Positions 3,466-23,350 of a DNA stretch of 23,457 bases are shown here, piece by piece. The stretch is from Priapulus caudatus (taxonomy: Eukaryota > Priapulida > Priapulimorpha > Priapulimorphida > Priapulidae), in the NCBI RefSeq assembly GCF_000485595.1, contig NW_014577148.1, positions 261,742 through 285,198 on the forward strand, given 5' to 3'. Every line of letters begins with the position of its first letter. Position 1 is the stretch's first letter. The notes beneath the pieces were generated by a model. The model saw nothing but the letters and a program-made list of their open reading frames with translations. It ran no database searches and was not told where the DNA came from. The position numbers and the translations under genes are program-made.

Positions 3466-3570
3466 TCAGGGTGACCAGACGTCCCGCATTTTGCCCATGT
3501 GTCCCGCGTGCCGTTACCGACCCTTCCGGTACGCATGTGTGTCCCGTATTTTTTAACATTTTGAACAAAA
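3466..3570. mobile_element. Single hAT-like transposon end
   Basis: The sequence CAGGGTGACCAGACGTCCCG starting at about 3468, followed by repeated GTCCCG blocks, resembles the terminus of a widespread class of hAT elements. I find no matching inverted end in the window, so this is a fragment or a solo end. Confidence 0.35.
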
Positions 3571-4199: not shown

Positions 4200-4746
4200 C
4201 ATTAATATAAGAAAACCTTAATCTAACGTATCTGCATATCTGCGCCTAACAAATGTGTCACTACGCACGACTGAAATTTTACGTTTATAACTAAACCGTA
4301 GCAACAGACCTCAGATGAGCCCAGACGCTCTGCGGCTCTTGTTATATTGAAATATCAGTTTTCTATTGTTGAAATCATAGGCAGAATAAGGCTAGTAAAT
4401 AATATTAATCTCTAATAATTGAGCCTTGTACGCTTCTCTGTTTTCATTCACTCCTGGTATTATATTGGGACTAGTTTGGGACAAGTCCTACATTGGGACC
4501 CATGTACATTAGTCAACCCTGAGATCAATTACATCACCCTAGATATCTAACTTTTTTATTTTCTCCTCAACCCTAACCTAACCCTAATTCAAAATACATA
4601 ATTGAATTTTGGGGTCCTAAAGTAGGATTGAAAACAAATTCAGTGTAATTAATTATATATTATAGTTACTTAGTTCTTAGTAATTAGCACTAGGAGTATT
4701 TTTAACTTTAATTTTTCTTTCTAATAGATGTCTTCATATTTTCTAG
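4200..4746. other. Non-coding spacer or gene A intron
   Basis: No exon is recognised. The first RING exon of gene A (with its C-x2-C pair) was searched for here and not found. A short reverse telomere-like tract lies at about 4567-4587. Confidence 0.4.
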
Positions 4747-4936
4747 TCCCACAGAGACCCCGTGTCGTCATGTATTCTGCAAAAAGTGCATAAGTGTCTG
4801 GTTGCGAGACCAGAATACCTGTCCTCACTGCCGAGGTCTGGTATTCAGATGCGAGATCAAACCTGTAGTACCAATAATACAGAACATGATATGTAAACTA
4901 CTCATCAAGTGTGATAATTTCGAGAAAGGATGCAAG
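4747..4936 (+). CDS. Gene A exon: RING finger (C3HC4 second half), putative E3 ubiquitin ligase
   Basis: The translation shows PTETPCRHVFCKKCI, then CPHCRG, which is the C-x-H-x2-C-x2-C-x10-C-x2-C part of a C3HC4 RING. It is followed by the helix and CDNFEKGC start of a TRAF-type zinc finger. The layout resembles RNF41/NRDP1, RNF151 and PDZRN proteins. RING domains of this type recruit a ubiquitin-charged E2. The acceptor is TATTTTCTAG at 4737-4746 and the donor is AAG|GTAAGT at 4937; phase is 1 in and 0 out. The first C-x2-C pair must lie in an upstream exon I cannot find. An alternative acceptor (CTAATAG, about 19 bases upstream) would also stay open. Confidence 0.85.
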
Positions 4937-5131
4937 GTAAGTAATATTAATTATAATGTAATGCCCATGCTATAGTTTGCTAATAAATAACGGTTTGAAG
5001 AAATGGTGGCAATAATTGAAAGCAATTATGCAATATTGGTAGATTGTTTGTAAACTAAATCATTATACCTAGCTTTATTCAATTGCTATGTAATCGTCAT
5101 CTTAGAATGCTTGTATGTTCTTTATGTGCAG

Positions 5132-5268
5132 GAACTACTACGGATTGAGGTTCATGAGGCTCATATGAAAACCTGTCTTTATGAAAAAATAACATGTGAA
5201 AACAATGGCTGCTTTGAATCCCACCTGCAAATGTCTATGGCGAGCCACAAGAGGGAATGCTGTTATAG
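5132..5268 (+). CDS. Gene A exon: TRAF-type zinc finger
   Basis: The exon encodes 45 codons including HEAHMKTCLYEKITCENNGC and a final SHKRECCYR. The Cys/His spacing is that of TRAF-type zinc fingers that follow the RING in RNF41-like and PDZRN-like ligases, where they bind substrates or adaptors. The acceptor is TTTATGTGCAG and the donor is TAG|GTAATG; it enters in phase 0 and leaves with two bases of an Arg codon. It lies 195 bp downstream of the RING exon and is present once only, because it lies upstream of the duplicated block. Confidence 0.85.
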
Positions 5269-5719
5269 GTAATGGGAGCAATATTACTCGAAAATATTTC
5301 ATGCATTAGACTTTGTGCAGGAAATATAAGTGGAGTTTTACTGGTGTCGAAGAAGAATAGTTGCAGATGTGGTAATACTCCATGCTAGAAAAGTAATGTG
5401 TTTCAGAAAAAAACCTTTGTAATGTGAGTCATGTCGTCCTATTGACTTCCCTATATAATTGGAGTTGCTTTCCTAGGAATGGTTTTTCAGCCAAAAAAGT
5501 GGGTATACCCTAGCTCTAGGTGAAACGATACACTAGGGTCACAATACGATACGTGTAGCGATACACAGACAGAAAGAGTCAGTCGACATGAATAGTCAAA
5601 TTCTAATGTTATTTTACTGTTATAATACTTATTATTCCAATACTTTTATAACGCAAATGTATTATGAGTATGTCAAAGCCATACTCAATTATATAGTAAA
5701 CAGTTACTATAATATTACA

Positions 5720-5930
5720 GACGGTGGTGGTGGAGATGCGGCGGTGGCAGTGGTGTTGGCTGTGGTGTGCTGGTAGTGGCGGTGGCAGTGGTGTTGGCTG
5801 TGGTGTGCTGGTAGTGGTGGTGGTGATGTTGTGCTGGAAGTGGTGTTAGCGGCCCTGGTGGTGATGGTGATGGAGGGTGGTGGTGGGTGACGGCAGTGTT
5901 GGCAGTGCTGGCAGTAGCGGTGGAGGGTAT
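5720..5930 (+). repeat. G-rich GGTGGT minisatellite in gene A intron
   Basis: The tract is made of GTGGTG, GGCAGT and TGTTGGC words. A unit of about 42 bp, centred on GGTGGCAGTGGTGTTGGCTG, is repeated nearly perfectly twice at the left. It lies in the intron between the two TRAF-finger exons and ends about 60 bp before the start of the duplicated block at 5989. It may form G-quadruplex-like structure and is a plausible assembly breakpoint. Open frames through it are repeat artefacts. Confidence 0.75.
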
Positions 5931-6080
5931 CACTATACCACCCCACTTATTCATAGCTGACGATATCAATGAAAATTGAGTGCAGGTGCCTTAATAACAG
6001 TTATTTGCTGTTTATCATTAGACCATTTATTGCCATTGTTATGAAAGCCACGTTATTGATTTTCTTATTTGATTTTGCAG

Positions 6081-6175
6081 AGTTGTTTCATGTCAAAAGG
6101 GATGTGATCTGACCATTCCATTCAATGCACTAGAAGAACATGATTGTATAGAAGAACTAAAAAAGAAAGTGAAAG
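6081..6175 (+). CDS. Gene A exon (copy 1): second TRAF-type zinc finger and helix
   Basis: It encodes VVSCQKGCDLTIPFNALEEH followed by DCIEELKKKVKG. The C-x3-C...H-x1-C pattern and the charged helix match the last TRAF-type finger of RNF41-like ligases. The acceptor GATTTTGCAG and the donor AAAG|GTGAT give phase 2 in and phase 1 out, consistent with both neighbours. It is identical in sequence to 11753-11847. Confidence 0.85.
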
Positions 6176-6658
6176 GTGATATAATTCACTTATTGCTAAC
6201 CAATGAAATAATTGGGCAGGAGTGGTTAGGTAGCTTAAACTGTATGGTTAGACTTGATGCTTCAAAATTAAGTACCTTTGAACAAAATTGAAAACTGAGG
6301 ACTTTGGTTCTTTTTTATATTATAAATAATTTACTAACTAGTTTATTACATCCACATCCCAATCTCAAGGAAACTTATTGTAAAATAAGTTGCTAAAGGG
6401 CCGAATTCCGTAAAGTATTTAATTAATTATTAAAGTATTTTCATTTTGCAATTGTATGCTTTAAATGGTGCTCCATCGATATCAACTATGTTTGCTGAGT
6501 GTACATTCCTAGCAACATCATAATGGTCTATGCAGTTTATGTAGTATCAGGATGCTATGGTGTTTTAATAAAAGCCATAATACCTTAATCTATTGTCAGT
6601 ATCTGGTCAGGTAGCATTTTCTAAGATGGACAGTATTTGGTATTTGGTATTTTGACAG

Positions 6659-6789
6659 AACAAGAGGAGATCATCAAGGCTCTTGCAGGTTCTCCTGTAT
6701 CAGATAGTAGGAGAAACTCTCTGGTTGGCACGCCTTACTCCACGCGAGGCCATTCTGACATTGACGCTCTTCTTAACACTACAAATGAG
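6659..6789 (+). CDS. Gene A exon (copy 1): linker
   Basis: It encodes 43 codons beginning EQEEIIKALAGSPVSDSRRN and ending ALLNTTNE. No domain is recognised. The segment is polar and contains an RRNSL basophilic-kinase-type site, and it starts the disordered region. The acceptor is TTTTGACAG and the donor is GAG|GTATGA; it leaves in phase 0. It differs from copy 2 by a silent CTT/CTC change. Confidence 0.75.
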
Positions 6790-7125
6790 GTATGACATCA
6801 TAACATGTCCAAAGACTGGCAGCTAACTTCACTGATGGACCTCAGCAAGATATCGTTTATTGTGTCGTTGGTTGTGAAATTTGTATTAGGAGTCCTTATT
6901 TTGTATGACAACACCTTGTGTGTAAAACTAGATTTGATTATAGAACAATAGGCAAGCTTGTGTGAGTACAACATGGTGCTACTTTATTCTCATCCTCTGA
7001 TATACTTACATAATATAATTTCTGTTTTCTGTCTTGTCATGTACAGTATTTATGTCTTGTATGTGGATTCTAAAATGCTTCTAAACATCATATTCGTGTT
7101 TAACATCTTTCTGACTGAATTTCAG

Positions 7126-7218
7126 ACAGAGCATACCTTCTCAGATGGTGACAGCATCAGAGATGTATTTCACACCACGGATGAGGAAGAGAGTGGGGAA
7201 TGTACCCCAGCATATGAG
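7126..7218 (+). CDS. Gene A exon (copy 1): acidic linker ending in a GC donor
   Basis: It encodes 31 codons, from TEHTFSDGDSIRD to GECTPAYE, with an acidic DEEESGE patch. The acceptor is CTGAATTTCAG. To stay in frame with the large last exon it must end in phase 0, and the only suitable donor is GAG|GCAAGG at 7219, a GC-AG intron. GT donors nearby put the last exon in a frame that stops at once. An alternative through an extra exon at 7272-7428 is described in the findings. Confidence 0.7.
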
Positions 7219-7820
7219 GCAAGGTTCTAAATAAGCAACAGTAGTTGAATGGCAAAGGATGTCTATTACAGCGTAGTGAGTAGTAGTATAACAATGAATC
7301 GAACTATCGATGCCATGGCATTTGGCTCGATAGTTATGTATCAGTGGCAAAGTAAAGCATTAACAACTATTGTTGAAAGTTCATTGAGCTATTCAGAGTT
7401 TTCGGTAATTGCAACATTAAAAGACCAGGTTAGTTTATTTACTTCTTAAAAGTTGTGATTTTTCCCATAAATATGCCTGAAAACCATTACCAACACTTTC
7501 ATGATTGTTGTAAATAATAATAAGACTGGTCCCCAGTCATCTACACATGGTCCATTCAACTAGCTCACTCACTATGCACGAGCATGTGATCAGTGGAATG
7601 ACAGGGTACCAGTCTAGTAATTAATGTGAACTAAAACGTTCACACGTATGCCAACATGAACATATAAGTGTGACAACAATATAATAGACAATTTCATAAT
7701 ACATAAATAGTATAACAATGTCATTCCAATTAGTTTTTCAATTATTGCAATATTATCGGCAAATCGAATTTCAACTGTCGCAATATCATCACAACTGTAA
7801 TGTTGCAACAAATAGTCCCT

Positions 7821-7859
7821 ACACACACGCACGCATGCACGCACGCACACACACACAGT
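7821..7859 (+). repeat. ACAC/ACGC microsatellite before the last exon (copy 1)
   Basis: A short (AC)n/(GCAC)n tract lies in the intron about 80 bp before the acceptor of the large last exon. It is the same length in copy 2 (about 13497-13535). Confidence 0.7.
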
Positions 7860-7936
7860 AGTGAGGATTCGCTTTCCTTTTATATCATCGCATGCTCTGA
7901 TTAATCTCTAATTCTTGCCTTGTTCGTTTATTGCAG

Positions 7937-10900
7937 CGTACGCCGAGACGGTCACAGCGTAACGAGACCGGCTTCCACATGAGGCTGCGTAACCGTGACG
8001 ACCGGTCGGACGCGAGGACGCCTTCGTTCGTCAGCGATGCTGAGGACGGTGGCGCCCTCAACATGTCCCGGCACCTGTCGCCGGACACGACGGTCGGTGG
8101 TGCGGGCGAGGCGAGGCAGGGCGACTGGTGGGTGTTCAGCTCGACGTCGCGCGAGCCGCGGCGTCTCTCCACGCAGGATCGCCCGGACGCCGGCTGGCTG
8201 TACTACCAGCATCGATCACACTCTACACCTCCGCCCATGGCGACCTCCAACCACGCGGAGACGATCAGAAGGAGTGAGCATAGGTCAGACAGCGACTTTG
8301 ACGACTCGCCCCGAACCGACTCAGCGAGTGGTGGACTCGCCGGCGAAAACCGGGCGCCGCCTGGCACCCACGCCGGTGCTGCTCGCTGCAGGAATCGGCG
8401 GTTATCGGGCGACACGTCCGTCGTCGCGGCGACCTCTGCTGCCGTTGTCCGCAGCGACACGGACGATGTTGCGATGCGTGACAGCGACGTGGTGACGACG
8501 GTGGAGGATGTGCTGAACACGTCAGGCCACCTCCACCAGCGACTGATCGCTGTCTATCAGAACCTGAACAGGTGCAGCAGTAAGTTCATGCAGCTGCGAA
8601 CGATGATTGGTAGTGGCGTGGGAGGAGCAGACGGCAACGATGATGGCACGATCACAGAGACGCTGCACGTGACAACGGGAGTGGGTGAAGGGAGCGGAGC
8701 AGCGGCGGGCAACGATGGAAAGGGTGGTGGAGAAACGAGTCGAAATGTGACATGCACTAGGGAAAATACGCTGTGTCACGAAGGTGATACGACACCAGAC
8801 TGTGACAATTCAGCTTCGAGTTTGACAACTCTTGATCGTGGTGGCCCAGCTTTAGGAGATACAGTAACTAGGGAGTGGTGTCGTCCAGCATGTTACACTA
8901 CCAGCCCAAACACTACTTCTGGCATTCTAGTTCCAGCAAGTCCGATATATGTCTCAATCGAAAATTCAGAAAGTCCACTTTATTCACAAACAAGTCCACG
9001 TTATCAACCAACAAGTCCACGTTATCAACCAACAAGTCCACGTTATCAACCAACAAGTCCAAGTTATCAACCAACAAGTCCAAGTTATCAACCAACAAGT
9101 CAACGTTATCAACCAACAAGTCTACGTTATCAACCAATAACTCCACGTTGTGACCAATCGATCCTGGAAAGCCCAGTGCATAGCACCACGGCCGTAGCGA
9201 GACCGAGCCATAGCCGCGCATACATAAACAGTCCATTACATAGCCAAGCAACGATAGCAAGCCCAGTAAGTAAACCTATATCGTTCGTGAGCCCAATACA
9301 TATCCCCACAAACATAGAAAGTTCACTGCGTGATCATACGTACAAAAAAAACCCAACTTATTCCACTATGCACCTAAGGTATGGGCCAATAAACTTACCT
9401 ATTACGTGCCCAAAGGGACCAAAGTATGAGCCCTCTGTGCCGACAGGTGCGTGCCACAGTAGGTTGAATCGCCAATGCGATGCAAGTCCATCTCAAGGTT
9501 ACGCTAGTCTAGATCTTTATCGATCAAGTAGAATGCCTGTTGTGACTGCTCCAAGCTGTGATACGTCGGCACGGGATGACGTTCTGAACGATGCTAAAGG
9601 ACGCGTGCACGAACACGCGGGACATTCTAGCCATCTAGTAGGTAGGCATGACTCTCCTAGAAAATCTCCTTCCCCTCGTCTAGTCGCCAAAAATGAGCAC
9701 GTGGACTCGTCAAAGCCTGATGCTTTGGAGAGGCTGTGGGAGCGACTAATAGCAACAGCAACCTTGGCCGAGCAGCAGCAAACGAGTGTGCTTCCTGATT
9801 GCAACGCACTGCACAGCTACAGTGACGCGGGATTGAGCAAATCCGTAGCAACAAAGCACAAGTGCAGCTTTCGTGCGCAGTTCGAGGGGGCGCCACCAGT
9901 AGAAGGTGATCCACCAGGAGTCGCCACTTCTACGGCGACGCGCGTGAATGCGATACGCTCGACTGCATCCTCTACTGATGAGGTCGCTTCATTCGAGGTC
10001 GTCGGCTTGCACAGGTCGCCTTTGCGTACCTCTCCGGACACGGTCGAGACTATACAGCTGTCGTCCAGCAGCAGTGGAGCGAGCTGCCAATCACGCGCTT
10101 CCCTGCGAGACGCGTGCGATGACGATTCGCTCTGCTGTAGCCGGCGGTCGCGCGACCCCCTCAGCTCTCTCAGTTCGGATGAATCCATCGAGCTCGCGAA
10201 TCGCGAGTCGCTCGGGGTGACAATCGAGCGTCTGTCGCACTGTGACAGAGCACGGCGACACTATTCCTCGGCTGCGCATGACCGCGAGCCAAACCTTTCC
10301 GAATCGGACGTTGACTCCTGCGATGAAACCGCGTCAAAGCATCCGCGTGTGAGCGCCGCCGGCAGCAGACGTAAGAGAAAGAAGTCTCCAGGTGGTGAGA
10401 CTGCTAGCATCGAGTCTTCATCTCGCGCGTCCTCATGCGAGACGTCTAGCCCCGACCATTCTGTAAGCTCTCGTACCTCGTTCACAAACTCTGTTGATTT
10501 ATCCAGTGACTCATCTGAGCAGAGCCGGTCAGGTGCGGCGAACACCGAGAACCGTACTCACAAACCTGTGCGATTCGAATTGAGAGATGTTTTGAGGTCG
10601 GGCTTCAATTCTGTTGCATCGGTGTGTTCCCCTCGACGAAACCAAGCATCTAATATAGACAGCCGCGGCACGGCGAACAGTGGCAGGGTTGGTCGTAACT
10701 TGGGACACCAGCGGGTGGGTGTTGACGTGAAGTCACCTGCGAACGCGCCGAGTTCGCAGCTGCGCGACGACAGAGACTGCGACACCTTCTCGACCACAAC
10801 CATCAGCAGCGACAGCGACGTACAGTTTGTCGTGGAGGTGAGTAAGGAGGATAAGATCTCCACGGTCGACCTCAGCGACGACGACACCAAGGCCCCCCTG

Positions 10901-11572
10901 CCCGCCATGACGTCGTCGCCACGCAAGCGCCACCTGGAGCCGTGGAGCACGTGGAAAGAAAAGAAGCGTTGCATCGACGCCGGCGGGCTCGCTCGCAAAC
11001 ACGCGCCGTCCACGTCGGCCGCGCCGGGCGGGAAGCCGACAACGCTTGCCGCGCCGCGTGCACCTCTCCCCACGCCGAGCATTGACAGTGCGGACCAGTC
11101 GGTCGGCGATGCTAAGAGAGGCGCCACCTGCAGGTGCAGCGGTGAGTGTCTCTGCAGTACGGACGGTGTCGAAGCGGCCGTGAGAGGCCTGCTGGGGGTG
11201 CAGCGGGAGTGCGGCATGCGCGTGCTGCCGCGCTGGGTGGAGCAGGTCGGCGCCCCGGCCAGCCGTCAATACAGCAGCGACTCCTCCTGGAGCCCTGGCC
11301 ACGACTCCCCCTCCGCATCCTCATCTTCCTCAGCCTCCCCAGCCTCCTCGCCCGATGATGACGACAGCTTGAGCGCGCTCGATTATGAGGTCCTGCTCGA
11401 CTGTGACTCGCGAGACAGCGACTCGAGACACGGCGACTCAAGAGAGGGCGATTCGCGAGATGGCGAGCATGAGCTGAGGCTTCCCCCGTCGACGGCCGAT
11501 CTGCTGCAGTGCTACCGCTCGGACGAGTCCGACGCCAGCTGGTCGCCGTCCAGCGACTCGGACGACGACTAG
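7937..11572 (+). CDS. Gene A last exon (copy 1): disordered tail with 8 Pol II CTD-like heptads
   Basis: A 3.6-kb uninterrupted exon starts after the acceptor CGTTTATTGCAG ([10 protein letters not shown]) and ends at TAG 11570-11572. In order it holds: a polar Arg/Ser/Gly-rich part; eight heptads of type YQPTSPR (8981-9148); nine degenerate decapeptides (9167-9436); Ser-rich low-complexity sequence; a basic RRKRKK stretch near 10370; SUMO-interaction-like VDLSSDS (10493), DVQFVVEV (about 10817) and [10 protein letters not shown] (about 10856); four DSRxG pentapeptides (11405-11464); and an acidic end SDSDDD. It has almost no predicted globular domain. The heptad region uses AT-rich codons, unlike the GC-rich flanks. 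The function of the tail is unknown. Together with the RING and TRAF fingers it suggests a nuclear ubiquitin ligase. Confidence 0.85.
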   Translation, partial: RTPRRSQRNETGFHMRLRNRDDRSDARTPSFVSDAEDGGALNMSRHLSPDTTVGGAGEARQGDWWVFSSTSREPRRLSTQDRPDAGWLYYQHRSHSTPPPMATSNHAETIRRSEHRSDSDFDDSPRTDSASGGLAGENRAPPGTHAGAARCRNRRLSGDTSVVAATSAAVVRSDTDDVAMRDSDVVTTVEDVLNTSGHLHQRLIAVYQNLNRCSSKFMQLRTMIGSGVGGADGNDDGTITETLHVTTGVGEGSGAAAGNDGKGGGETSRNVTCTRENTLCHEGDTTPDCDNSASSLTTLDRGGPALGDTVTREWCRPACYTTSPNTTSGILVPASPIYVSIENSESPLYSQTSPRYQPTSPRYQPTSPRYQPTSPSYQPTSPSYQPTSQRYQPTSLRYQPITPRCDQSILESPVHSTTAVARPSHSRAYINSPLHSQATIASPVSKPISFVSPIHIPTNIESSLRDHTYKKNPTYSTMHLRYGPINLPITCPKGPKYEPSVPTGACHSRLNRQCDASPSQGYASLDLYRSSRMPVVTAPSCDTSARDDVLNDAKGRVHEHAGHSSHLVGRHDSPRKSPSPRLVAKNEHVDSSKPDALERLWERLIATATLAEQQQTSVLPDCNALHSYSDAGLSKSVATKHKCSFRAQFEGAPPVEGDPPGVATSTATRVNAIRSTASSTDEVASFEVVGLHRSPLRTSPDTVETIQLSSSSSGASCQSRASLRDACDDDSLCCSRRSRDPLSSLSSDESIELANRESLGVTIERLSHCDRARRHYSSAAHDREPNLSESDVDSCDETASKHPRVSAAGSRRKRKKSPGGETASIESSSRASSCETSSPDHSVSSRTSFTNSVDLSSDSSEQSRSGAANTENRTHKPVRFELRDVLRSGFNSVASVCSPRRNQASNIDSRGTANSGRVGRNLGHQRVGVDVKSPANAPSSQLRDDRDCDTFSTTTISSDSDVQFVVEVSKEDKISTVDLSDDDTKAPLPAMTSSPRKRHLEPWSTWKEKKRCIDAGGLARKHAPSTSAAPGGKPTTLAAPRAPLPTPSIDSADQSVGDAKRGATCRCSGECLCSTDGVEAAVRGLLGVQRECGMRVLPRWVEQVGAPASRQYSSDSSWSPGHDSPSASSSSSASPASSPDDDDSLSALDYEVLLDCDSRDSDSRHGDSREGDSRDGEHELRLPPSTADLLQCYRSDESDASWSPSSDSDDD
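8981..9148 (+). repeat. CTD-like heptad array, 8 units (copy 1)
   Basis: Eight exact 21-bp units in frame encode Y-[S/Q]-[P/Q]-[T/I]-[S/T]-[P/Q/L]-[R/S]. The first is YSQTSPR, the next four are YQPTSPR or YQPTSPS, and the last three degrade (TSQR, TSLR, ITPR). Compared with copy 2 it corresponds to unit 1 joined to units 29-35, a clean loss or gain of 27 units. Confidence 0.95.
9167..9436 (+). repeat. Degenerate decapeptide (30-bp) array, 9 units (copy 1)
   Basis: Directly after the heptads, nine consecutive 30-bp units encode ten-residue repeats with a loose [E/N/A/V]-S-P-[V/L/I]-H-S-x4 pattern: [30 protein letters not shown] and [10 protein letters not shown] are clear, and the later units are eroded. 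The Ser-Pro core is shared with the heptads. Confidence 0.75.
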
Positions 11573-11650
11573 CCGCCCAGCGACGCGAACGACGACTAGC
11601 CGCCCAGCGACGCGGACGACGACTAGCCATTCAGCGACGCGGACGACGAC
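11573..11650 (+). repeat. 27-bp stop-codon minisatellite (copy 1, truncated by gap)
   Basis: Two full units and one 24-bp partial unit of CCGCCCAGCGACGCGGACGA-CGACTAG lie immediately after the stop codon. Each full unit repeats the last nine codons of the gene with the TAG included. The array runs straight into the N gap. Confidence 0.9.
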
Positions 11651-11660
11651 NNNNNNNNNN
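11651..11660. other. Assembly gap (10 N)
   Basis: Ten N join two contigs whose facing ends are copies of the same locus. The left contig ends in the 27-bp minisatellite and the right one starts inside a gene A intron. Confidence 1.
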
Positions 11661-11752
11661 CCTTAATAACAGTTATTTGCTGTTTATCATTAGACCATTT
11701 ATTGCCATTGTTATGAAAGCCACGTTATTGATTTTCTTATTTGATTTTGCAG

Positions 11753-11847
11753 AGTTGTTTCATGTCAAAAGGGATGTGATCTGACCATTCCATTCAATGC
11801 ACTAGAAGAACATGATTGTATAGAAGAACTAAAAAAGAAAGTGAAAG
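11753..11847 (+). CDS. Gene A exon (copy 2): second TRAF-type zinc finger
   Basis: It is the same 95-bp exon as 6081-6175, with the same acceptor and donor. The RING exon and first TRAF finger are not repeated upstream of it, which is what makes this contig start look like an assembly cut rather than a second full gene. Confidence 0.85.
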
Positions 11848-12330
11848 GTGATATAATTCACTTATTGCTAACCAATGAAATAATTGGGCAGGAGTGGTTA
11901 GGTAGCTTAAACTGTATGGTTAGACTTGATGCTTCAAAATTAAGTACCTTTGAACAAAATTGAAAACTGAGGACTTTGGTTCTTTTTTATATTATAAATA
12001 ATTTACTAACTAGTTTATTACATCCACATCCCAATCTCAAGGAAACTTATTGTAAAATAAGTTGCTAAAGGGCCGAATTCCGTAAAGTATTTAATTAATT
12101 ATTAAAGTATTTTCATTTTGCAATTGTATGCTTTAAATGGTGCTCCATCGATATCAACTATGTTTGCTGAGTGTACATTCCTAGCAACATCATAATGGTC
12201 TATGCAGTTTGTGTAGTATTAGGATGCTATGGTGTTTCAATAAAAGCCATAATACCTTAATCTATTGTCAGTATCTGGTCAGGTAGCATTTTCTAAGATG
12301 GACAGTATTTGGTATTTGGTATTTTGACAG

Positions 12331-12461
12331 AACAAGAGGAGATCATCAAGGCTCTTGCAGGTTCTCCTGTATCAGATAGTAGGAGAAACTCTCTGGTTGG
12401 CACGCCTTACTCCACGCGAGGCCATTCTGACATTGACGCTCTCCTTAACACTACAAATGAG
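12331..12461 (+). CDS. Gene A exon (copy 2): linker
   Basis: It is equivalent to 6659-6789, with one synonymous difference. The acceptor TTTTGACAG and donor GAG|GTATGA are conserved. Confidence 0.75.
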
Positions 12462-12800
12462 GTATGACATCATAACATGTCCAAAGACTGGCAGCTAACT
12501 TCACTGATGGACCTCAGCAAGATATCGTTTATTGTGTCGTTGGTTGTGAAATTTGTATTAGGAGTCCTTATTTTGTATGACAACACCTTGTGTGTAAAAC
12601 TAGATTTGATTATAGAACAATAGGCAAGCTTGTGTGAGTGCAACTTGGTGCTACTTTATTCTCATCCTCTGATATACTTACATAATATAATTTCTGTTTT
12701 CTGTCTTGTCATGTACAGTATTTATGTCTTGTATGTGGATTCTAAAATGCTTCTAAACATCATATCAATCGTGTTTAACATCTTTCTGACTGAATTTCAG

Positions 12801-12893
12801 ACAGAGCATACCTTCTCAGATGGTGACAGCATCAGAGATGTATTTCACACCACGGATGAGGAAGAGAGTGGGGAATGTACCCCAGCATATGAG
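12801..12893 (+). CDS. Gene A exon (copy 2): acidic linker, GC donor
   Basis: It is equivalent to 7126-7218. The unusual GAG|GCAAGG donor is unchanged in this copy, so it is not a sequencing error in one contig. The upstream intron has a 3-bp insertion relative to copy 1. Confidence 0.7.
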
Positions 12894-13612
12894 GCAAGGT
12901 TCTAAATAAGCAACAGTAGTTGAATGGCAAAGGATGTCTATTACAGCGTAGTGAGTAGTAGTATAACAATGAATCGAACTATCGATGCCATGGCATTTGG
13001 CTCGATAGTTATGTATCAGTGGCAAAGTAAAGCATTAACAACTATTGTTGATAGTTCATTGAGCTATTCAGAGTTTTCGGTAATTGCAACATTAAAAGAC
13101 CAGGTTAGTTTATTTACTGCTTAAAAGTTGTGATTTTTCCCATAAATATGCCTGAAAACCATTACCAACACTTTCATGATTGTTGTAAATAATAATAAGA
13201 CTGGTCCCCAGTCATCTACACATGGTCCATTCAACTAGCTCACTCACTATGCACGAGCATGTGATCAGTGGAATGACAGGGTACCAGTCTAGTAATTAAT
13301 GTGAACTAAAACGTTCACACGTATGCCAACATGAACATATAAGTGTGGACAACAATATAATAGACAATTTCATAATACATAAATAGTATAACAATGTCAT
13401 TCCAATTAGTTTTTCAATTATTGCAATATTATCGGCAAATCGAATTTCAACTGTCGCAATATCATCACAACTGTAATGTTGCAACAAATAGTCCCTACAC
13501 ACACGCACGCATGCACGCACGCACACACACACAGTAGTGAGGATTCGCTTTCCTTTTATATCATCGCATGCTCTGATTAATCTCTAATTCTTGCCTTGTT
13601 CGTTTATTGCAG

Positions 13613-16600
13613 CGTACGCCGAGACGGTCACAGCGTAACGAGACCGGCTTCCACATGAGGCTGCGTAACCGTGACGACCGGTCGGACGCGAGGACGCCTT
13701 CGTTCGTCAGCGATGCTGAGGACGGTGGCGCCCTCAACATGTCCCGGCACCTGTCGCCGGACACGACGGTCGGTGGTGCGGGCGAGGCGAGGCAGGGCGA
13801 CTGGTGGGTGTTCAGCTCGACGTCGCGCGAGCCGCGGCGTCTCTCCACGCAGGATCGCCCGGACGCCGGCTGGCTGTACTACCAGCATCGATCACACTCT
13901 ACACCTCCGCCCATGGCGACCTCCAACCACGCGGAGACGATCAGAAGGAGTGAGCATAGGTCAGACAGCGACTTTGACGACTCGCCCCGAACCGACTCAG
14001 CGAGTGGTGGACTCGCCGGCGAAAACCGGGCGCCGCCTGGCACCCACGCCGGTGCTGCTCGCTGCAGGAATCGGCGGTTATCGGGCGACGCGTCCGTCGT
14101 CGCGGCGACCTCTGCTGCCGTTGCCCGCAGCGACACGGACGATGTTGCGATGCGTGACAGCGACGTGGTGACGACAGTGGAGGATGTGCTGAACACGTCA
14201 GGCCACCTCCACCAGCGACTGATCGCTGTCTATCAGAACCTGAACAGGTGCAGCAGTAAGTTCATGCAGCTGCGAACGATGATTGGTAGTGGCGTGGGAG
14301 GAGCAGACGGCGACGATGATGGCACGATCACAGAGACGCTGCACGTGACAACGGGAGTGGGTGAAGGGAGCGGAGCAGCGGCGGGCAACGATGGAAAGGG
14401 TGGTGGAGAAACGAGTCGAAATGTGACATGCACTAGGGAAAATACGCTGTGTCACGAAGGTGATACGACACCAGACTGTGACAATTCAGCTTCGAGTTTG
14501 ACAACTCTTGATCGTGGTGGCCCAGCTTTAGGAGATACAGTAACTAGGGAGTGGTGTCGTCCAGCATGTTACACTACCAGCCCAAACACTACTTCTGGCA
14601 TTCTAGTTCCAGCAAGTCCGATATATGTCTCAATCGAAAATTCAGAAAGTCCACTTTATTCACAAACAAGTCCACTTTATCAACCAACAAGTCCACATAA
14701 TCAACCAACAAGTCCACGTTATCAATCATCAAGTCCACGTTATTCACAAACAAGTCCACTTTATCAACCAACAAGTCCACATTATCAACCATCAAGCCCA
14801 CGTTATCAATCAACAAGTCCACGTTATGAACCAACAAGTCCAAGTTATCAACCATCAAGTCCACATTATCAACCAACAAGTCCACGTTATGAACCAACAA
14901 GTCCAAGTTATAACCCAACAAGTCCACGTTATTCACAAACAAGTCCACTTTATCAACCAACAAGTCCACATTATCAACCATCAAGCCCACGTTATCAACC
15001 AACAAGTCCAAGTTATAACCCAACAAGGTCACGTTATCAACAATCAAGTCCACGTTCTGAACCAACAAGTCCAAGTTATCAACCAACAAGTCCAAGTTAT
15101 CAACCATCAAGTCCACGTTATCAACCAACAAGTCCACGTTATGAACCAACAAGTCCAAGTTATAACCCAACAAGTCCACGTTATCAACCAACAAGTCCAG
15201 GTTATCAACAATCAAGTCCACGTTATGAACCAACAAGTCCAAGTTATCAACCAACAAGTCCACGTTATCAACCAACAAGTCCACGTTATCAACCAACAAG
15301 TCCAAGTTATCAACCAACAAGTCCAAGTTATCAACCAACAAGTCAACGTTATCAACCAACAAGTCTACGTTATCAACCAATAACTCCACGTTGTGACCAA
15401 TCGATCCTGGAAAGCCCAGTGCATAGCACCACGGCCGTAGCGAGACCGAGCCATAGCCGCGCATACATAAACAGTCCATTACATAGCCAAGCAACGATAG
15501 CAAGCCCAGTAAGTAAACCTATATCGTTCGTGAGCCCAATACATATCCCCACAAACATAGAAAGTTCACTGCGTGATCATACGTACAAAAAAAACCCAAC
15601 TTATTCCACTATGCACCTAAGGTATGGGCCAATAAACTTACCTATCACGTGCCCAAAGGGACCAAAGTATGAGCCCTCTGTGCCGACAGGTGCGTGCCAC
15701 AGTAGGTTGAATCGCCAATGCGATGCAAGTCCATCTCAAGGTTACGCTAGTCTAGATCTTTATCGATCAAGTAGAATGCCTGTTGTGACTGCTCCAAGCT
15801 GTGATACGTCGGCACGGGATGACGTTCTGAACGATGCTAAAGGACGCGTGCACGAACACGCGGGACATTCTAGCCATCTAGTAGGTAGGCATGACTCTAC
15901 TAGAAAATCTCCTTCCCCTCGTCTAGTCGCCAAAAATGAGCACGTGGACTCATCAAAGCCTGATGCTTTGGAGAGGCTGTGGGAGCGACTCATAGCAACA
16001 GCAACCTTGGCCGAGCAGCAGCAAACGAGTGTGCTTCCTGATTGCGACGCACTGCACAGCTACAGCGACGCGGGATCGAGCAAATCCGTAGCAACGAAGC
16101 ACAAGTGCAGCTTTCGTGCGCAGTTTGAGGGGGCGCCACCAGTAGAAGGTGATCCACCAGGAGTCGCCACTTCTACGGCGACGCGCGTGAATGCGATACG
16201 CTCGACTGCATCCTCTACCGACGAGGTCGCTTCATTCGAGGTCGTCGGCTTGCACAGGTCGCCTTTGCGTACCTCTCCGGACACGGCCGAGACTATACAG
16301 CTGTCGTCCAGCAGCAGTGGAGCGAGCTGCCAATCACGCGCTTCCCGTTCACGCGCTTCCCTGCGAGACGCGTGCGATGACGATTCGCTCTGCTGTAGCC
16401 GGCGGTCGCGCGACCCCCTCAGCTCTCTCAGTTCGGATGAATCCATCGAGCTCGCGAATCGCGAGTCGCTCGGGGTGACAATCGAGCGTCTGTCGCACTG
16501 TGACAGAGCACGGCGACACTATTCCTCGGCTGCGCATGACCGCGAGCCAAACCTTTCCGAATCGGACGTTGACTCCTGCGATGAAACCGCGTCAAAGCAT

Positions 16601-17851
16601 CCGCGTGTGAGCGCCGCCGGCAGCAGACGTAAGAGAAAGAAGTCTCCAGGTGGTGAGACTGCTAGCATCGAGTCTTCATCTCGCGCGTCCTCATGCGAGA
16701 CGTCTAGCCCCGACCATTCTGTAAGCTCTCGTACCTCGTTCACAGACTCTGTTGATTTATCCAGTGACTCATCTGAGCAGAGCCGGTCAGGTGCGGCGAA
16801 CACCGAGAACCGTACTCACAAACCTGTGCGATTCGAATTGAGAGATGTTTCGAGGTCGGGCTTCAATTCTGTTGCATCGGTGTGTTCCCCTCGACGAAAC
16901 CAAGCATCTAATGTAGACAGCCGCGGCACGGCGAACAGTGGCAGGGTTGGCCGTAACTCGGGACACCAGCGGGTGGGTGTTGACGTGAAGTCGTCTGCGA
17001 ACGCGCCGAGTTTGCAGCTGCGCGACGACAGAGACTGCGACACCTTCTCGACCACAACCATCAGCAGCGACAGCGACGTACAGTTTGTCGTGCAGGTGAG
17101 TAAGGAGGATAAGATCTCCACGGTCGACCTCAGCGACGACGACACCAAGGCCCCCGTGCCCGCCATGACGTCGTCGCCACGCAAGCGCCACCTGGAGCCG
17201 TGGAGCACGTGGAAAAAAAAGAAGCGTTGCATCGACGCCAGCGGGCTCGCTCGCAAACACGCGCCGTCCACGTCGGCCGCGCCGGGCGGGAAGCCGACAA
17301 CGCTTGCCGCGCCGCGTGCACCTCTCCCCACGCCGAGCATTGACAGTGCGGACCAGTCGGTCGGCGATGCTAAGAGAGGCGCCACCTGCAGGTGCAGCGG
17401 TGAGTGTCTCTGCAGTACGGACACGGACGGTGTCGAAGCGGCCGTGAGAGGCCTGCTGGGGGTGCAGCGGGAGTGCGGCATGCGCGTGCTGCCGCGCTGG
17501 GTGGAGCAGGTCGGCGCCCCGGCCAGCCGTCAATACAGCAGCGACTCCTCCTGGAGCCCTGGCCACGACTCCCCCTCCGCATCCTCATCTTCCTCAGCCT
17601 CCCCAGCCTCCTCGCCCAATGATGACGACAGCTTGAGCGCGCTCGATTATGAGGTCCTGCTCGACTGTGACTCGCGAGACAGCGACTCGAGACACGGCGA
17701 CTCGAGAGAGGGCGATTCGCGAGACGGTGACTCGCGAGATGGCGAGCATGAGCCGAGGCTTCCCCCGTCGACGGCCGATCTGCTGCAGTGCTACCGCTCG
17801 GACGAGTCCGACGCCAGCTGGTCGCCGTCCAGCGACGCGGACGACGACTAG
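13613..17851 (+). CDS. Gene A last exon (copy 2): disordered tail with 35 Pol II CTD-like heptads
   Basis: A 4.2-kb exon runs from the acceptor at 13611-13612 to TAG 17849-17851. Architecture is as in copy 1 but with 35 heptads (14657-15391), decapeptides at 15410-15679, the basic stretch at 16628, SUMO-interaction-like motifs at 16751, about 17075 and about 17114, and five DSRxG pentapeptides (17669-17743). About twenty residues differ from copy 1 (for example S/L, N/D, E/Q and D/N changes), many of them replacements, as expected for two alleles of a weakly constrained disordered region. No enzyme motif is visible in the tail. Proposed role: a phosphorylatable or SUMO-binding scaffold of a nuclear RING ligase; this is inference. 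Confidence 0.88.
14657..15391 (+). repeat. Pol II CTD-like heptad array, 35 units
   Basis: Thirty-five consecutive 21-bp units keep perfect register. By my count position 1 is Tyr in 33; position 2 is Gln 24, Glu 5, Ser 3, Asn 3; and Ser5-Pro6 is present in 31. Typical units are [21 protein letters not shown] and YSQTSPL. The Pol II consensus is YSPTSPS. Blocks of several units recur ([14 protein letters not shown]-x-x at units 1-4, 5-8 and 14-17; [17 protein letters not shown] at 11-13 and 23-25), showing segmental amplification. Confidence 0.95.
15410..15679 (+). repeat. Degenerate decapeptide array, 9 units (copy 2)
   Basis: It matches the copy 1 array unit for unit, with at most silent differences. 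Unlike the heptad array it has not changed in length. Confidence 0.75.
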
Positions 17852-18243
17852 TCACCCAGCGACGCGGACGACGACTAGTCGCCCAGCGACTAGCCGCCCA
17901 GCGCTACAACGACTAGCCGCCCAGCGACTCGGACGACGACTAGCCGTCCAGCGACTCGGACGACGACTAGTCGCCCAGCGACGCGGACGACGACTAGTCG
18001 CCCAGCGACGCGGACGACGACTAGCCGTCCAGCGACGCGGACGACAACTAGTCACCCAGCGACGCGGACGACGACTAGTCACCCAGCGACTCGGACGACG
18101 ACTAGCCGCCCAGCGACGCGGACGACGACTAGCCGCCCAGCGACGCGGACGACGACTAGCCGCCCAGCGACGCGGACGACGACTAGCCATTCAGCGACGC
18201 GGACGACGACTAGCCGCCCAGCGACGCGGTCGCTGCGGGATAG
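17852..18243 (+). repeat. 27-bp stop-codon minisatellite downstream of gene A
   Basis: About 14 units of 27 bp follow the stop codon, each ending GACGACGACTAG; two units are shortened (15 and 23 bp) and a diverged last unit ends GGGATAG. Variants differ mainly in the first six bases (CCGCCC, TCGCCC, TCACCC, CCGTCC, CCATTC). The unit is the last nine codons of the ORF including TAG, so the array looks like repeated duplication of the gene's own end. Confidence 0.93.
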
Positions 18244-19819: not shown

Positions 19820-19966
19820 GATGAAAACACTTTTTCCGGCGTCCATCACGATACCGCTCAGAATAAGGCACGTTTTCCAGCGTCCATCGCGACACCGCTC
19901 AGAATAAAGCACGTTTTCCGACGTCCATCGCGACACCACTCAGAAGAAGGCACGTTTTCCGACGTC
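19820..19966 (-). repeat. 41-bp tandem repeat spanning the gene B stop codon
   Basis: Three full units (19844-19884, 19885-19925, 19926-19966) and one partial unit (about 19820-19843) share GACGTCGGAAAACGTGCCTT and TCTGAG-GGTGTCGCGATG on the minus strand. The first unit in transcription order contains the last codons and TGA (19940-19942). The others lie in the 3' untranslated region and repeat the TGA out of register, because 41 is not a multiple of three. Confidence 0.9.
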
Positions 19967-20455
19967 GATGCCGTCAAACGCGCTCTCGATGACGTCAATC
20001 TCATGCTCTACAGCGGCGCACCGGGACTTGGCGTAGTCCGGCGCTGGTATGTAGGTTGGCGGCTCGTGGTACAGCGGCACGTACGGCCCGGCATCGTGCC
20101 CGTATTTACTGGCCTTCATCGGCGTCGGCGGCAGAGGGCGCTGCTGGTTGAAGCTGCGCGTGCGTGTTTCGTAGTAACCGTTGGCATGGTGATAGTTGCT
20201 CGGCGCGTAGACGTCGATGTCCTGGTAGACGGGAATGTAGGGGTCGACACTGTGTGAGGCGTTGAATTTAATGGCCGCCTCCGGCTGCATCAGCCACGGC
20301 AGCGGGCAGGTGACGATGAGGTCCGGCTCCACGGTCGGCGACCGCTTGTGATGAGATTTCGGCAACGTGCCCGGAGAGTTGGATGAACTGCTGAGACGGT
20401 GCGTCGAACTCGTGGACAGTGACGTCAGGCTGTTGCTGTTACCACGGGGGAGAAT
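19940..20455 (-). CDS. Gene B last exon: Ser-rich and Tyr/Pro-rich C-terminal tail
   Basis: It encodes 171 residues from ILPRGNSNSLTSLS to DVGKRAFF and a TGA. The first third is Ser/Thr-rich. Then come repeated Tyr-Pro motifs (DPYIPVYQ and GPYVPLYHEPP), and RPLPPTP, an SH3-ligand-like stretch. No FH1 or FH2 domain follows. The acceptor is a GTGTGTGTGTGCGGCAG tract, phase 0. The tail may dock SH3 or phosphotyrosine-binding partners, which is inference. The stop codon lies within the 41-bp tandem repeat. Confidence 0.8.
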   Translation of the reverse strand: MLPRGNSNSLTSLSTSSTHRLSSSSNSPGTLPKSHHKRSPTVEPDLIVTCPLPWLMQPEAAIKFNASHSVDPYIPVYQDIDVYAPSNYHHANGYYETRTRSFNQQRPLPPTPMKASKYGHDAGPYVPLYHEPPTYIPAPDYAKSRCAAVEHEIDVIESAFDGIDVGKRAFF

Positions 20456-20707
20456 CTGCCGCACACACACACAAGAACGCATTCATTAGTTAGGGAAACC
20501 AACGGTGCCCTGACCCTACCACAACTCGACTATGCTGATGGACCTATTTCACTCAGTTTTACCAGAACATCTCAATGCCTCGGCTGTGCTAATATCACGA
20601 ATGAAATTTTAATTGCCAATTAATTTGTGATACTTTTAATATGTTAAGATACTATAAAGACAACGTGATGAACGTTGGCCTTGCTAATATGACTTGATCA
20701 TACGCAC

Positions 20708-20911
20708 CTTGTCCATGACGCCTCTGTGGGAAGAAGAGCGTGAGGATGCACTTCCTGTGAGGTTAACACGAGGGGGCACCACAGGCGGGCCATCCTCGTC
20801 GTCGCTTGGTTCGCGACTCTCAAGTTGGTCAAGGCGTAGGCGCAAGCGTGCGCACTCATCTCGTAGATCTTGCTCTGTCCTGTACACTGCCACTCGCTCA
20901 TGCTCCAGTGC
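20708..20911 (-). CDS. Gene B exon: coiled coil and acidic-proline linker
   Basis: It encodes 68 codons. ALEHERVAVYRTEQDLRDEC followed by ARLRLRLDQLESRE has a clear heptad pattern of a coiled coil. SDDEDGPPVVPPRV and a Ser-rich SSRSSSHRG follow. The acceptor is TGCTTGCAG and the donor is AAG|GTGCGT; it is phase 0 at both ends, so the exon is symmetric and could be skipped without a frame change. Confidence 0.8.
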
Positions 20912-21054
20912 CTGCAAGCACATCGTTCTTTTAGTCAACAAAGACGTCATAGCGCCCATCTAACATGCTTCCCGAATGACTGCGGGTATACTGTGCCTAT
21001 ATCAGTATAGAAGTCCACTGAAAATTTGGTATACTATAATAAATGTATACGTAC

Positions 21055-21195
21055 CATCAAGTTATTCTGTAGGTGAGTCACTTTGTTCTTCATCAGGATA
21101 TTGTCGCCATTGACCTTGAGCATGTTGTCGGCAATTACCTCAACGTCGATGTAGTTGTTCTTCCAAAGGCTGACCTCATTCTTTAGTGTTGCCAC
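21055..21195 (-). CDS. Gene B exon: coiled-coil segment
   Basis: It encodes 47 codons, VATLKNEVSLWKNNYIDVEV onward and ending KVTHLQNNLM. It is amphipathic and coiled-coil-like. The acceptor is TTCTCACTAG and the donor is ATG|GTACGT, phase 0 at both ends. It links the FH3-like part to the longer coiled coil of the next exon, the same order as in formin N-terminal regions. Confidence 0.8.
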
Positions 21196-21405
21196 CTAGT
21201 GAGAAGAAACTTTTAATAATACTAGAAAATAACATTCGTTGTGAGGTACCAGGCGTTTTTAATTAAAAACAATAACGACCACAGCAACACACCTACACAG
21301 TTATGCGTGTCCAAAACGCAAGTATTAGGATGGCACACGCAATACGATATTACTTGAGAAATGCGATATATCATGGTCATAATACACATAGTCATGTATT
21401 CACAC

Positions 21406-21555
21406 CTTATCTGCGGGCTCATCGACGCTGTTGCAGCTGCCTTGTAGCTGCTGTAAGTCTAGTCCAGCAACTTCCAGCTCCTGTTGCAGGTAGACGCGCA
21501 TGTTGGGACTGGCTGCGCTGTCCAGCAACCGATTTAGCATCTGTAGTGCCGCTAT
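21406..21555 (-). CDS. Gene B exon: formin FH3-like segment
   Basis: It encodes 50 codons, including IAALQMLNRLLDSA and MRVYLQQELEVAGLDL. This resembles the part of formin FH3 (armadillo-like) domains where a helix ending in N-x-x-V/L is followed by F/M-R-V-x-L-Q-x-E-F/L-x3-G-L-D, as in FMNL and diaphanous proteins. The acceptor is TTCTCCACCAG and the donor is AAG|GTGTGA, phase 0. In formins this region contributes to Rho-GTPase-dependent control and localisation. The assignment is from motif memory, not a search. Confidence 0.7.
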
Positions 21556-21685
21556 CTGGTGGAGAAATATGATTTTTCTATAATGTGAAACAGGGATTCT
21601 TTTAATACTGACTAGATACAATATCGTAACCCTGCAGGCCAGGTCTGTCCGATCACGCTGTCTCTAAGACCTGTCTGCAGGGCTA

Positions 21686-21686
21686 C

Positions 21687-21760
<74 letters not shown>

Positions 21761-22070
21761 TGTGTTTGTGGTGTGTGGGGGGGGGGCGTGTGTGGTGCGC
21801 GCGGTCGTGTGGTGTTGTGGGCGTGCGCGCGCTGTGTTGTGTGCGGCAGTGCGTGCGGCGTGTGTGGCGTGTGTGTGCGCGCGTACGCGGCGTGTGTGTG
21901 TGTGCGCGCGCGTGTGCGGTGTGTGTGTGTGCTGTGTGTGTGTGTGTGGTGTGTGCGTGTGTGGGTGTGTGCGCGCGCGCGTTGTGTGGTGTGTGTGTGC
22001 GTTGTGTGTGCGTGTGTGATGTGGTGTGTGAGTGGTGTGTGTGCGCGCGCGCGGTGCGTGCGTCTGGCTA
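21686..22070 (+). repeat. (TA)n/(TG)n/(CG) microsatellite cluster in gene B intron
   Basis: A (TA)n run passes into (TG)n, then into about 300 bp of irregular TG/CG alternation. It lies within the intron between exons 22167-22273 and 21406-21555 of gene B. Three overlapping Cys/Val-rich open frames through it are artefacts of the repeat. Confidence 0.9.
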
Positions 22071-22166
22071 TCTATGCTTTCTTACCGTCATTTCAGTGGG
22101 TGCTAGCTGTCCTACTCACCTGGAGGTAATTACAGCTGTAGGCCGGGGTTACTCATCATCGCTCAC

Positions 22167-22273
22167 GAGCATCTTAAACCGCGGCCGACCTCGCAAACTC
22201 TGAACTTGACCATAGTGAATAGACTCGCAAGACCTCGTAATTTCATCCTTCGCGAGCAGGTAATCGTTAGCAG
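22167..22273 (-). CDS. Gene B exon upstream of the FH3-like segment
   Basis: It encodes 35 codons, ANDYLLAKDEITRSC to GRPRFKML. The acceptor is GCCCATTATAG and the donor is CTC|GTGAGC; it needs one base from the previous exon and leaves in phase 0, matching the next exon. A GTAACC donor eight bases further would place the next exon out of frame. The RPRFKML end joins IAALQML in a way that resembles the R-F-x-x-L-I-x-A-L start of FH3 helices. Confidence 0.65.
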
Positions 22274-22579
22274 CTATAATGGGCAACAATGCAACAAACA
22301 TAATATACAACTATAGAGTTACCAATACATGCCAGTAAGGCACACACGGACAATAGTATCTGGGGTATTTCGGCTAGAATTGCTTGATTTGAATTGTATA
22401 GATTTTTGATAGTATCTTATTATGTTTTTTCAAGGCATTTATATGTGTAAGAATTTCTGGCTGTTTGTTAAATTTCACGTTACTTTAATAATAATTTTTT
22501 AGTAATGATTTTATCGTCTTTATTCATTGTAAAGTCAGTGGCTTTTTTGGCCGAATACTTTCAAGGTAATTTATCCTAC

Positions 22580-22683
22580 CATGATACTCTAGGCGGCCAG
22601 AGTCGCTTGCTTTTGTGAAGCTGCTCATAACAAACATGCTGTATGTCTTCATACCGACAGGGTGAGCCACCATTTTGATCCAT
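22580..22683 (-). CDS. Possible first coding exon of gene B
   Basis: A minus-strand ATG at 22681-22683 has a strong start context (A at -3, G at +4) and opens MDQNGGSPCRYEDIQH, ending KRLWPPRVS before ATG|GTAGGA. The phase (two extra bases) does not fit the exon at 22167-22273, so either an exon between them is missing or this is not part of gene B. Confidence 0.3.
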
Positions 22684-22699
22684 GCTTTGCCTAGCAGGA

Positions 22700-23350
22700 A
22701 GATAATACAGTAAAGGACGAGCTGCGAGTTCATCGCGCGTTAAATATATATCGAGAAAACGTCTTTTACAATGCGCATATACGAGTTCACGCAAGTTTCC
22801 GAGCGAACCACGCAATTGTGTATAAAAAGATAAAAAGGCACGAAGGTAACGCGTGGGGAAATAATACTTAGCGGGTATCGCGTGCTTAGCTTCAGGCTGA
22901 GCAAGCAGTCATGCTGCCATCTCAGTCTAGAAGAGGAAGAAAACATTATTGTAGCATCACGCATGTGAAGGATCCAGTCTAGTTGAGGTGACCCTCTCAA
23001 AAACCGACGCTTGTCCTGTGACTATTCTGGTGACAAACGGGTCATGTGCTGACACCTCTTCGTAGCAATCTTTTAAAAAGCGAAAACGTGAAAGCAGTTT
23101 GAGTGAATATAAAATAATATCTGCATAAATTGTATTTTGACCACAAAAGTAACAAACGGCCAGAAGGAGAAGAGGTTTGAAGGTCTATCATCTGGGCCGG
23201 GTGAGAATTAGATACAATCGAGAAACATATTTTATATAAAAGACTGGTTTTATGATCGCGTAAAATCAGTGTTATCTGACCGTTGATGCTTCAAAATCTA
23301 ACTAACAATAAACGCATTTTATAAAATGCTAGACATTCTAGGTTCAAACA
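22700..23350. other. Non-coding region, possible gene B upstream region
   Basis: No exon is recognised on either strand. A TATAAAA string occurs on the plus strand at about 22821 but has no gene behind it in the right orientation. If gene B starts near 22683, part of this is its promoter region, but I see no clear elements. Confidence 0.35.

Follow-up and report, generated by a model that had tools for sequence, protein, structure and literature searches.

Tandem heptads of consensus YSPTSPS (Pfam: PF05001) form the C-terminal domain (CTD) of Rpb1, the largest subunit of RNA polymerase II (Pol II), where the paired phosphosites Ser2-Pro3 and Ser5-Pro6 are accompanied by Ser7. The repeat number of this domain shifts by the loss of whole units, and contractions of the yeast CTD are reported to be flanked by microhomologies (PMC7341143). 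For the mammalian CTD, five heptads are given as the minimal functional unit (PMC6548728), and a tyrosine-driven condensation of the CTD has been reported (PMC10519987).

CTD-like motifs are also known off the polymerase. Among the proteins concerned with the CTD or its likenesses, Spt5 is a DSIF subunit without a RING finger, and Asr1 is a RING protein. Nrd1 is reported to bind CTD-mimic motifs in Trf4, Mpp6 and Sen1 (PMC4186968, PMC7110113), the C-terminal CTD-like motif of Spt5 to be phosphorylated by CDK9 (PMC7070488), and Asr1, a yeast E3 ubiquitin ligase, to be recruited by the phosphorylated CTD (PMC12270679). The literature that we found on CTD mimics deals mostly with yeast termination and the influenza polymerase, several papers being unrelated; no paper joining CTD-like heptads with a RING finger or an E3 ligase was found in a search that left out most subscription journals.

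Here we analyze a window from Priapulus caudatus, i.e. the whole stretch of 23,457 nucleotides under study, which lies on contig C88 of a genome of 385 Mb in 2952 contigs. Like the Rpb1 CTD, the array found in it is composed of tandem heptads with Tyr1, Pro3, Thr4 or Ser4, Ser5 and Pro6, matches PF05001 in its longer copy (copy B), and shifts in repeat number by whole units; unlike the Rpb1 CTD, it reads YQPTSPR, has mostly lost Ser2 and Ser7, sits off the polymerase, and uses almost one codon per residue. With the Nrd1-interaction motifs of Trf4, Mpp6 and Sen1 it shares the placement of a CTD-like motif in a (here probably) disordered part of a non-polymerase protein, but those motifs are short, contain acidic residues and come from yeast, whereas here there are 35 units without an acidic stretch. 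Spt5 is another protein outside the polymerase that bears a CTD-like motif (PMC7070488). Asr1 provides the parallel of a ubiquitin ligase tied to the CTD; however, Asr1 binds the CTD, while here a probable ligase itself carries a CTD-like array. Proteins of the TRAF6/LNX2 type have a RING finger followed by TRAF-type fingers, an order that the present gene, with its sub-threshold TRAF-type match, may share; it has a long Ser-rich tail in place of a MATH/TRAF-C or PDZ domain.

Structure of the heptad array and its surroundings

The longer array (Table 1) consists of 35 consecutive 7-residue units without a break, encoded by 21-base units in the open frame 13577-17851. The initial annotation had reported these 35 in-frame heptads and had described Tyr1, Pro3, Thr4, Ser5 and Pro6 as largely kept; both statements are borne out by the unit count, and the array itself also by TRF (period 21, 35.5 copies, 14647-15392, score 1079). 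Measured against YSPTSPS, the seven positions agree in 33, 3, 28, 27, 33, 32 and 9 of the 35 units. Position 2 is occupied by Gln (24), Glu (5), Ser (3) and Asn (3), position 4 by Thr (27) or Ser (7), i.e. by one of these two residues in 34 units, and position 7 by Arg (18), Ser (9), His (4), Leu (3) and Gly (1). Position 6 follows a Ser or Thr as Pro in 32 units (SP in 31, TP in one). The combination of paired Ser2-Pro3/Ser5-Pro6 phosphosites and Ser7 that marks the Rpb1 CTD is not found in the array: Ser5 is largely retained, but Ser2 is missing in 32 units and Ser7 is mostly gone. Nrd1-interaction motifs have acidic residues ahead of a hydrophobic stretch flanked by Tyr and sit in disordered regions of nuclear proteins; the array has Tyr in 33 and Glu at position 2 in 5 of its 35 units, without an acidic stretch inside it.

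The initial annotation had also suggested a profile search with the Pol II CTD repeat. On exon 7 of copy B, PF05001 reaches 25.4 bits and passes its cut-off of 20.3; exon 7 of copy A, with 8 heptads, matches no Pfam family at E up to 1, PF05001 included. A search of the whole genome with this profile was uninformative, since it missed even Rpb1 and the array, and none of its 14 controls rang.

Upstream of the array, 345 residues have a high content of Ser, Thr, Arg, Gly and Asp; the 819 downstream residues are enriched in Ser, Asp, Ala and Arg. The only Pfam match in exon 7 at E up to 1 is the CTD repeat of copy B. Judging from this composition, the tail of the protein is long, Ser-rich and probably disordered. 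Behind the heptads there is a degenerate S-P array with a period of 10 residues: in this region, which was picked by eye, the amino acid autocorrelation at a lag of 10 is 0.25 (compared with shuffles, P 0.0008), and that of the DNA is 0.50 at 30 bp and 0.51 at 60 bp. Farther downstream lie two basic runs, which are candidate nuclear localization signals; the second of them, KKKKR in copy B, reads KEKKR in copy A.

A gene part present twice across a scaffold gap

A near-identical part of the gene is present on either side of a run of ten Ns (5989-11650, copy A; 11661-~18210, copy B). Both the gap and the duplication across it were overlooked in the initial annotation; its array persists, but the RING exons sit directly upstream of copy A, with 8 heptads, and not of the exon with 35. 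Positions 5989-9157 align with 11661-14834 at 98.8% identity, and 8971-11611 with 15214-17890 at 97.3%. The end of copy A (11545-11650) matches within a 27-bp repeat past the stop codon, best at 18105-18210, and the first base of copy B is the first base past the Ns, with no unique sequence ahead of it. Units 2-8 of the array in copy A equal units 29-35 in copy B codon for codon, and unit 1 of copy A equals unit 1 of copy B except for the last codon (CGT vs. CTT), so the shorter array reads as it would after an in-register loss of 567 bp and one base change. All length differences between the two copies of exon 7 keep the frame (15, 6, 15 and, in the array, a net 567 bp).

Two overlapping contig ends of two haplotypes, left unmerged, would fit these observations better than two genes; the assembler perhaps failed to merge the haplotypes because their arrays differ by 567 bp. 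We regard a true tandem duplication, whose downstream copy either has no RING exons or has them in the gap, as unlikely. Both copies do lie on one scaffold, but the gap sits right on the junction, copy B opens without unique sequence, and copy A ends in the 27-bp repeat that copy B continues, as expected of overlapping contig ends; moreover, the first alignment is 98.8% identical, and the introns differ at only 7 of 1629 positions. The duplication is also the less simple reading, because the gap would have to hit the junction by chance. The copies diverge more in exon 7 than in the introns (35/3612 vs. 7/1629, P 0.045); this counts against plain haplotype divergence, which does not predict it. 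As for the shorter array, its 8 units could also be the product of an assembly collapse.

The 27-bp tandem repeat (17829-18229) starts where the reading frame ends. Most of the units printed carry a TAG of their own, and copies of the stop have therefore spread into the 3' region. Elsewhere in the genome, contig C1210 (L003/L004) contains a relative of window positions 4345-6676; the likeness ends at 4345, and the heptad exon is not shown there. We rejected its interpretation as a paralog, since single-base insertions make up 143 of the 232 indel events counted over its two aligned pieces, next to 174 substitutions. It resembles what uncorrected long reads of this locus would leave behind in an assembly.

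Gene model and domain organization

When the RING exons are combined with copy B, six exons yield one continuous frame of 1627 codons with matching phases, counted from a start at 4747. Their borders have AG acceptors and GT donors, except for the donor after exon 6, which is GC. The intron opening at window position 7219 (AG followed by GCAAGG) is probably of the GC-AG type, and copy B has the same. In copy A, the open frame 7901-11572 comprises 1223 aa, the first residues of which fall in the intron. The initial annotation had asked for the splicing between 4747 and 13613 to be checked: the model is consistent in frame, but the join from the RING exons to the 35-heptad exon crosses the scaffold gap and probably two haplotypes. 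In our view it is very unlikely that the heptad exon is part of another gene or transcript than the RING exons; the one GC donor, from exon 6 to exon 7, would speak for such a split, but the six exons share one frame, matching phases and AG acceptors, and both copies have exons 4-6 lined up alike ahead of exon 7.

Table 1. Predicted exons, repeats and sequence motifs in the window.
Feature	Position	Strand	Evidence
Exon 2: second half of RING finger (VFIFSSPTETPCRHVFCKKCISVWLRDQNTCPHCR...)	4728..4936	+	PF13639, 38.7 bits on ORF 4712-4972; donor GTAAGT
Exon 3: TRAF-type zinc finger, first part	5132..5268	+	PF02176 across exons 3-4, splice sites, phase
Exon 4, copy A: end of TRAF-type zinc finger	6081..6175	+	splice sites, phase
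Exon 5, copy A	6659..6789	+	splice sites, phase
Exon 6, copy A: non-canonical GC donor AG/GCAAGG	7126..7218	+	continuous frame into exon 7
Exon 7, copy A: Ser-rich tail, 8 heptads, stop 11570-11572	7937..11572	+	open frame 7901-11572
Heptad array, copy A: 8 units	8981..9148	+	unit count
10-N scaffold gap between two overlapping copies	11651..11660		run of ten Ns
Exon 4, copy B	11753..11847	+	identical to copy A
Exon 5, copy B	12331..12461	+	1 difference vs. copy A
Exon 6, copy B	12801..12893	+	identical to copy A
Exon 7, copy B: tail, 35 heptads, stop 17849-17851	13613..17851	+	open frame 13577-17851
Heptad array, copy B: 35 units, consensus Y-Q-P-T-S-P-R	14657..15391	+	TRF, unit count, PF05001 25.4 bits
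Degenerate period-10 S-P array	15413..15622	+	autocorrelation
Basic run RRKRKK, NLS-like	16625..16642	+	motif scan
Basic run KKKKR, NLS-like	17213..17227	+	motif scan

For exon 2, the start at 4728 (acceptor taatag, 4722-4727) is preferred over 4747 for two reasons: the RING model PF13639 gives the longer frame a better score (38.7 vs. 33.3 bits, cut-off 27.3), and a relative on contig C26 reads C-A-I-C-G-G-V-F before its TPCGHAYC. This relative (L016) is the best-scoring other RING relative in the genome that reads openly (38% identical over 67 residues); its 336-aa frame has a complete RING together with a stretch resembling a zinc finger, and no such heptads. A further locus with a RING match, on contig C48, has no open frame fitting the RING pattern used. 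In the window, only the second half of the RING was found: upstream of exon 2 there is no convincing first Cys pair, and a scan of positions 1-4700 for the C-x2-C pattern gave six matches, one of them with an internal stop. The first Cys pair probably lies in an earlier exon. One candidate for it, M-C-P-A-C with the Met at 3497, was not adopted: by reading it would join in frame, but its donor is weak, and it may sit in a dispersed repeat.

Across exons 3-4, the TRAF-type finger PF02176 scores 22.9 bits (E 1.4e-4), under its cut-off of 27, and among the 60 PDB matches listed for the RING/TRAF part RNF4 leads, with TRAF6 and LNX2 included. In neither copy does exon 7 show a PDZ domain or the C-terminal MATH/TRAF-C domain that characterizes the TRAF family (Pfam, E up to 1). 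The initial annotation let the protein start with a RING and TRAF fingers; the RING is supported by PF13639, but with its second half alone in the window, and the TRAF finger stays below threshold. As far as can be told from the sequence, the gene product is a probable RING-type ubiquitin ligase.

Two further features of the window may be mentioned. Open frames on the minus strand (19943-22908) may belong to a neighboring gene; three pieces of them were compared with Pfam and gave no match (E up to 0.1). At 2806-2881 there is a GTTAGG-type array of 12.5 copies, which resembles a telomere repeat.

Selection and age of the array

Over 1204 aligned codons, the two copies of exon 7 differ by 14 synonymous and 21 non-synonymous changes (pS 0.0159, pN 0.0077, P 0.046); a single non-synonymous one lies in the array. 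Taken as a whole, exon 7 is coding sequence under mild purifying selection, and the tail is not free of constraint. Within the array, the variants relative to the consensus unit comprise 20 of the 45 possible non-synonymous types and 1 of the 15 possible synonymous types (P 0.019); this test is rough, as it counts against the consensus and breaks codon changes of several bases, e.g. CAA to TCA, down into single-base steps, one of which would on its own read as a stop. The third base of the Tyr, Pro and Thr codons is invariant, which, together with the non-synonymous excess, fits a recent spread of one founder unit. Because of the same excess, the constancy of Tyr1, Ser5 and Pro6 can neither be read as constraint nor taken to exclude it. 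By these comparisons the array looks young, unstable and without visible constraint.

Origin of the heptads

The genome's own Rpb1 CTD is located on contig C85, with canonical heptads, 46 of which have the form Y-x-P-x-S-P-x. This Rpb1 tail scores 560-622 bits against Rpb1 chains of 1970-1984 residues, presumably mammalian, and 264 bits or less against one other Rpb1 and chains that we take to be of yeast type; together with the splicing, this suggests an animal. The array is not attached to the largest subunit of Pol II, as exon 7 has no other Pfam match and the Rpb1 CTD lies on C85. A comparison of the array with the genome yielded 25 matches, from 33 of 899 candidates scored, and five loci (L008-L012) were opened; they include Rpb1 on C85, a low-complexity sequence on C80, and a different Tyr/Pro repeat on C465. 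The last of these (L010) has YQPAQPSYGAPEPA-like units within an open frame of 529 aa.

Exon shuffling or gene conversion might have carried the Rpb1 CTD into this gene, with later drift at positions 2 and 7, but we consider such a capture highly improbable. At the protein level the likeness to the genome's Rpb1 CTD amounts to 62%, and the best alignment of an array unit to Rpb1 is slightly above that to codon-shuffled Rpb1 (P 0.060 for the first unit, 0.106 for the consensus unit; a weak test). However, the DNA identity between the array and the 46 Rpb1 units is 0.506, compared with 0.515 for a random synonymous recoding of the same peptides (P 0.68); in this comparison no nucleotide trace ties the array to Rpb1, the identity being no higher than the peptide predicts. 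Furthermore, Rpb1 uses many codons per position and the array almost one per residue, and no Rpb1 linker or C-terminal end is seen by eye around the array. Alignment of the array unit to the decamers of the period-10 array gives P 0.043 for the first unit, uncorrected, and 0.216 for the consensus unit, again a weak test. Most likely, the heptads grew within an S-P-rich, repeat-prone segment and were not captured from Rpb1, with an origin from the local decamers weakly supported.

Possible function and implications

The reading that we prefer, with a confidence slightly better than even, is that of a single gene seen through two haplotypes, which codes for a RING-type ligase with a disordered tail and a young coding minisatellite that converged on CTD-like heptads. 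According to this model, two overlapping haplotype contigs were set end to end with a 10-N gap, whereby the gene appears twice. Its product would be a RING-type ubiquitin ligase that also bears TRAF-type zinc fingers and ends in a very long tail rich in Ser; in the last exon of the gene a 21-base coding minisatellite would have grown to 35 units, compared with 8 in the other copy, every unit being near Y-x-P-T/S-S-P-x, and the likeness to the Pol II CTD would be a convergence in a segment that was already S-P-rich and repeat-prone. Ser-Pro ladders suit proline-directed kinases and Pin1-type readers. The array may represent such a multivalent Ser5-Pro6 ladder, phosphorylatable by proline-directed kinases and open to modular Ser-Pro readers, e.g. 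Pin1-type WW domains; its tyrosines may add self-association, in line with the condensation reported for the CTD (PMC10519987), and the copy number would set the valency. Given the five-heptad minimum reported for the mammalian CTD, the 8- and 35-unit forms could differ in function. In favor of the model are the six-exon frame, the alignments of the two copies, the codon-identical units, the frame-keeping indels, the variant types, the DNA identity of the units to Rpb1, the period-10 S-P array and the heptad-free relative on C26. Against it stand the weak support for a local origin from the decamers, with similar P values for Rpb1, the chance of a true tandem duplication or of a shorter array collapsed in assembly, the GC donor of exon 6, the first Cys pair of the RING outside what was seen in the window, the higher divergence of exon 7 than of the introns, and the mild purifying selection on exon 7.

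A functional mimicry of the CTD, in which the array recruits or titrates readers of the Ser5-phosphorylated CTD or docks CTD kinases and thereby brings the ligase to transcription complexes, is improbable as things stand. The retention of Tyr1, Pro3, Thr4, Ser5 and Pro6, the PF05001 score of copy B and the NLS-like basic runs in the tail are in line with it, and Glu at position 2 in 5 of the 35 units might imitate phospho-Ser2. Precedents are reported in Trf4, Mpp6 and Sen1 (PMC4186968) and in the recruitment of the yeast ligase Asr1 by the phosphorylated CTD (PMC12270679). Against these points, few units have Ser2 or Ser7, the array carries no purifying signal, and the other copy has 8 units and fails PF05001; readers that need phospho-Ser2 are disfavored because Ser2 is lost. 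The initial annotation had proposed that the array competes for or recruits CTD-binding factors, or that the protein is a ligase acting on transcription complexes. What it observed stands in the main: the likeness to the CTD and the combination of domains are facts of the sequence, within the limits given above. We see no direct support for the proposed function, although the Ser5-Pro6 (31 units) and Thr5-Pro6 (one unit) pairs, the NLS-like runs and the frame-keeping lengths agree with it; such a function is possible, but we do not favor it.

A more elaborate version, rather improbable in our estimate, would be a ligase with its own length-variable CTD decoy: a Ser5-only array, with Ser2 replaced by Gln or by a fixed phospho-mimicking Glu, would be phosphorylated by CTD kinases and gather readers of phosphorylated Ser5. 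In this way the ligase would join transcription condensates or drain them, to a degree set by the length of the allele.

If the array acts as a CTD, the locus would offer a natural test of the CTD code, with Tyr1, Pro3 and Ser5-Pro6 but without Ser2 or Ser7, off the polymerase, and with 8- and 35-unit forms side by side in one assembly. If it does not function like a CTD, it would represent a clean case of convergence on low-complexity sequence, and a reason for caution in annotation with PF05001.
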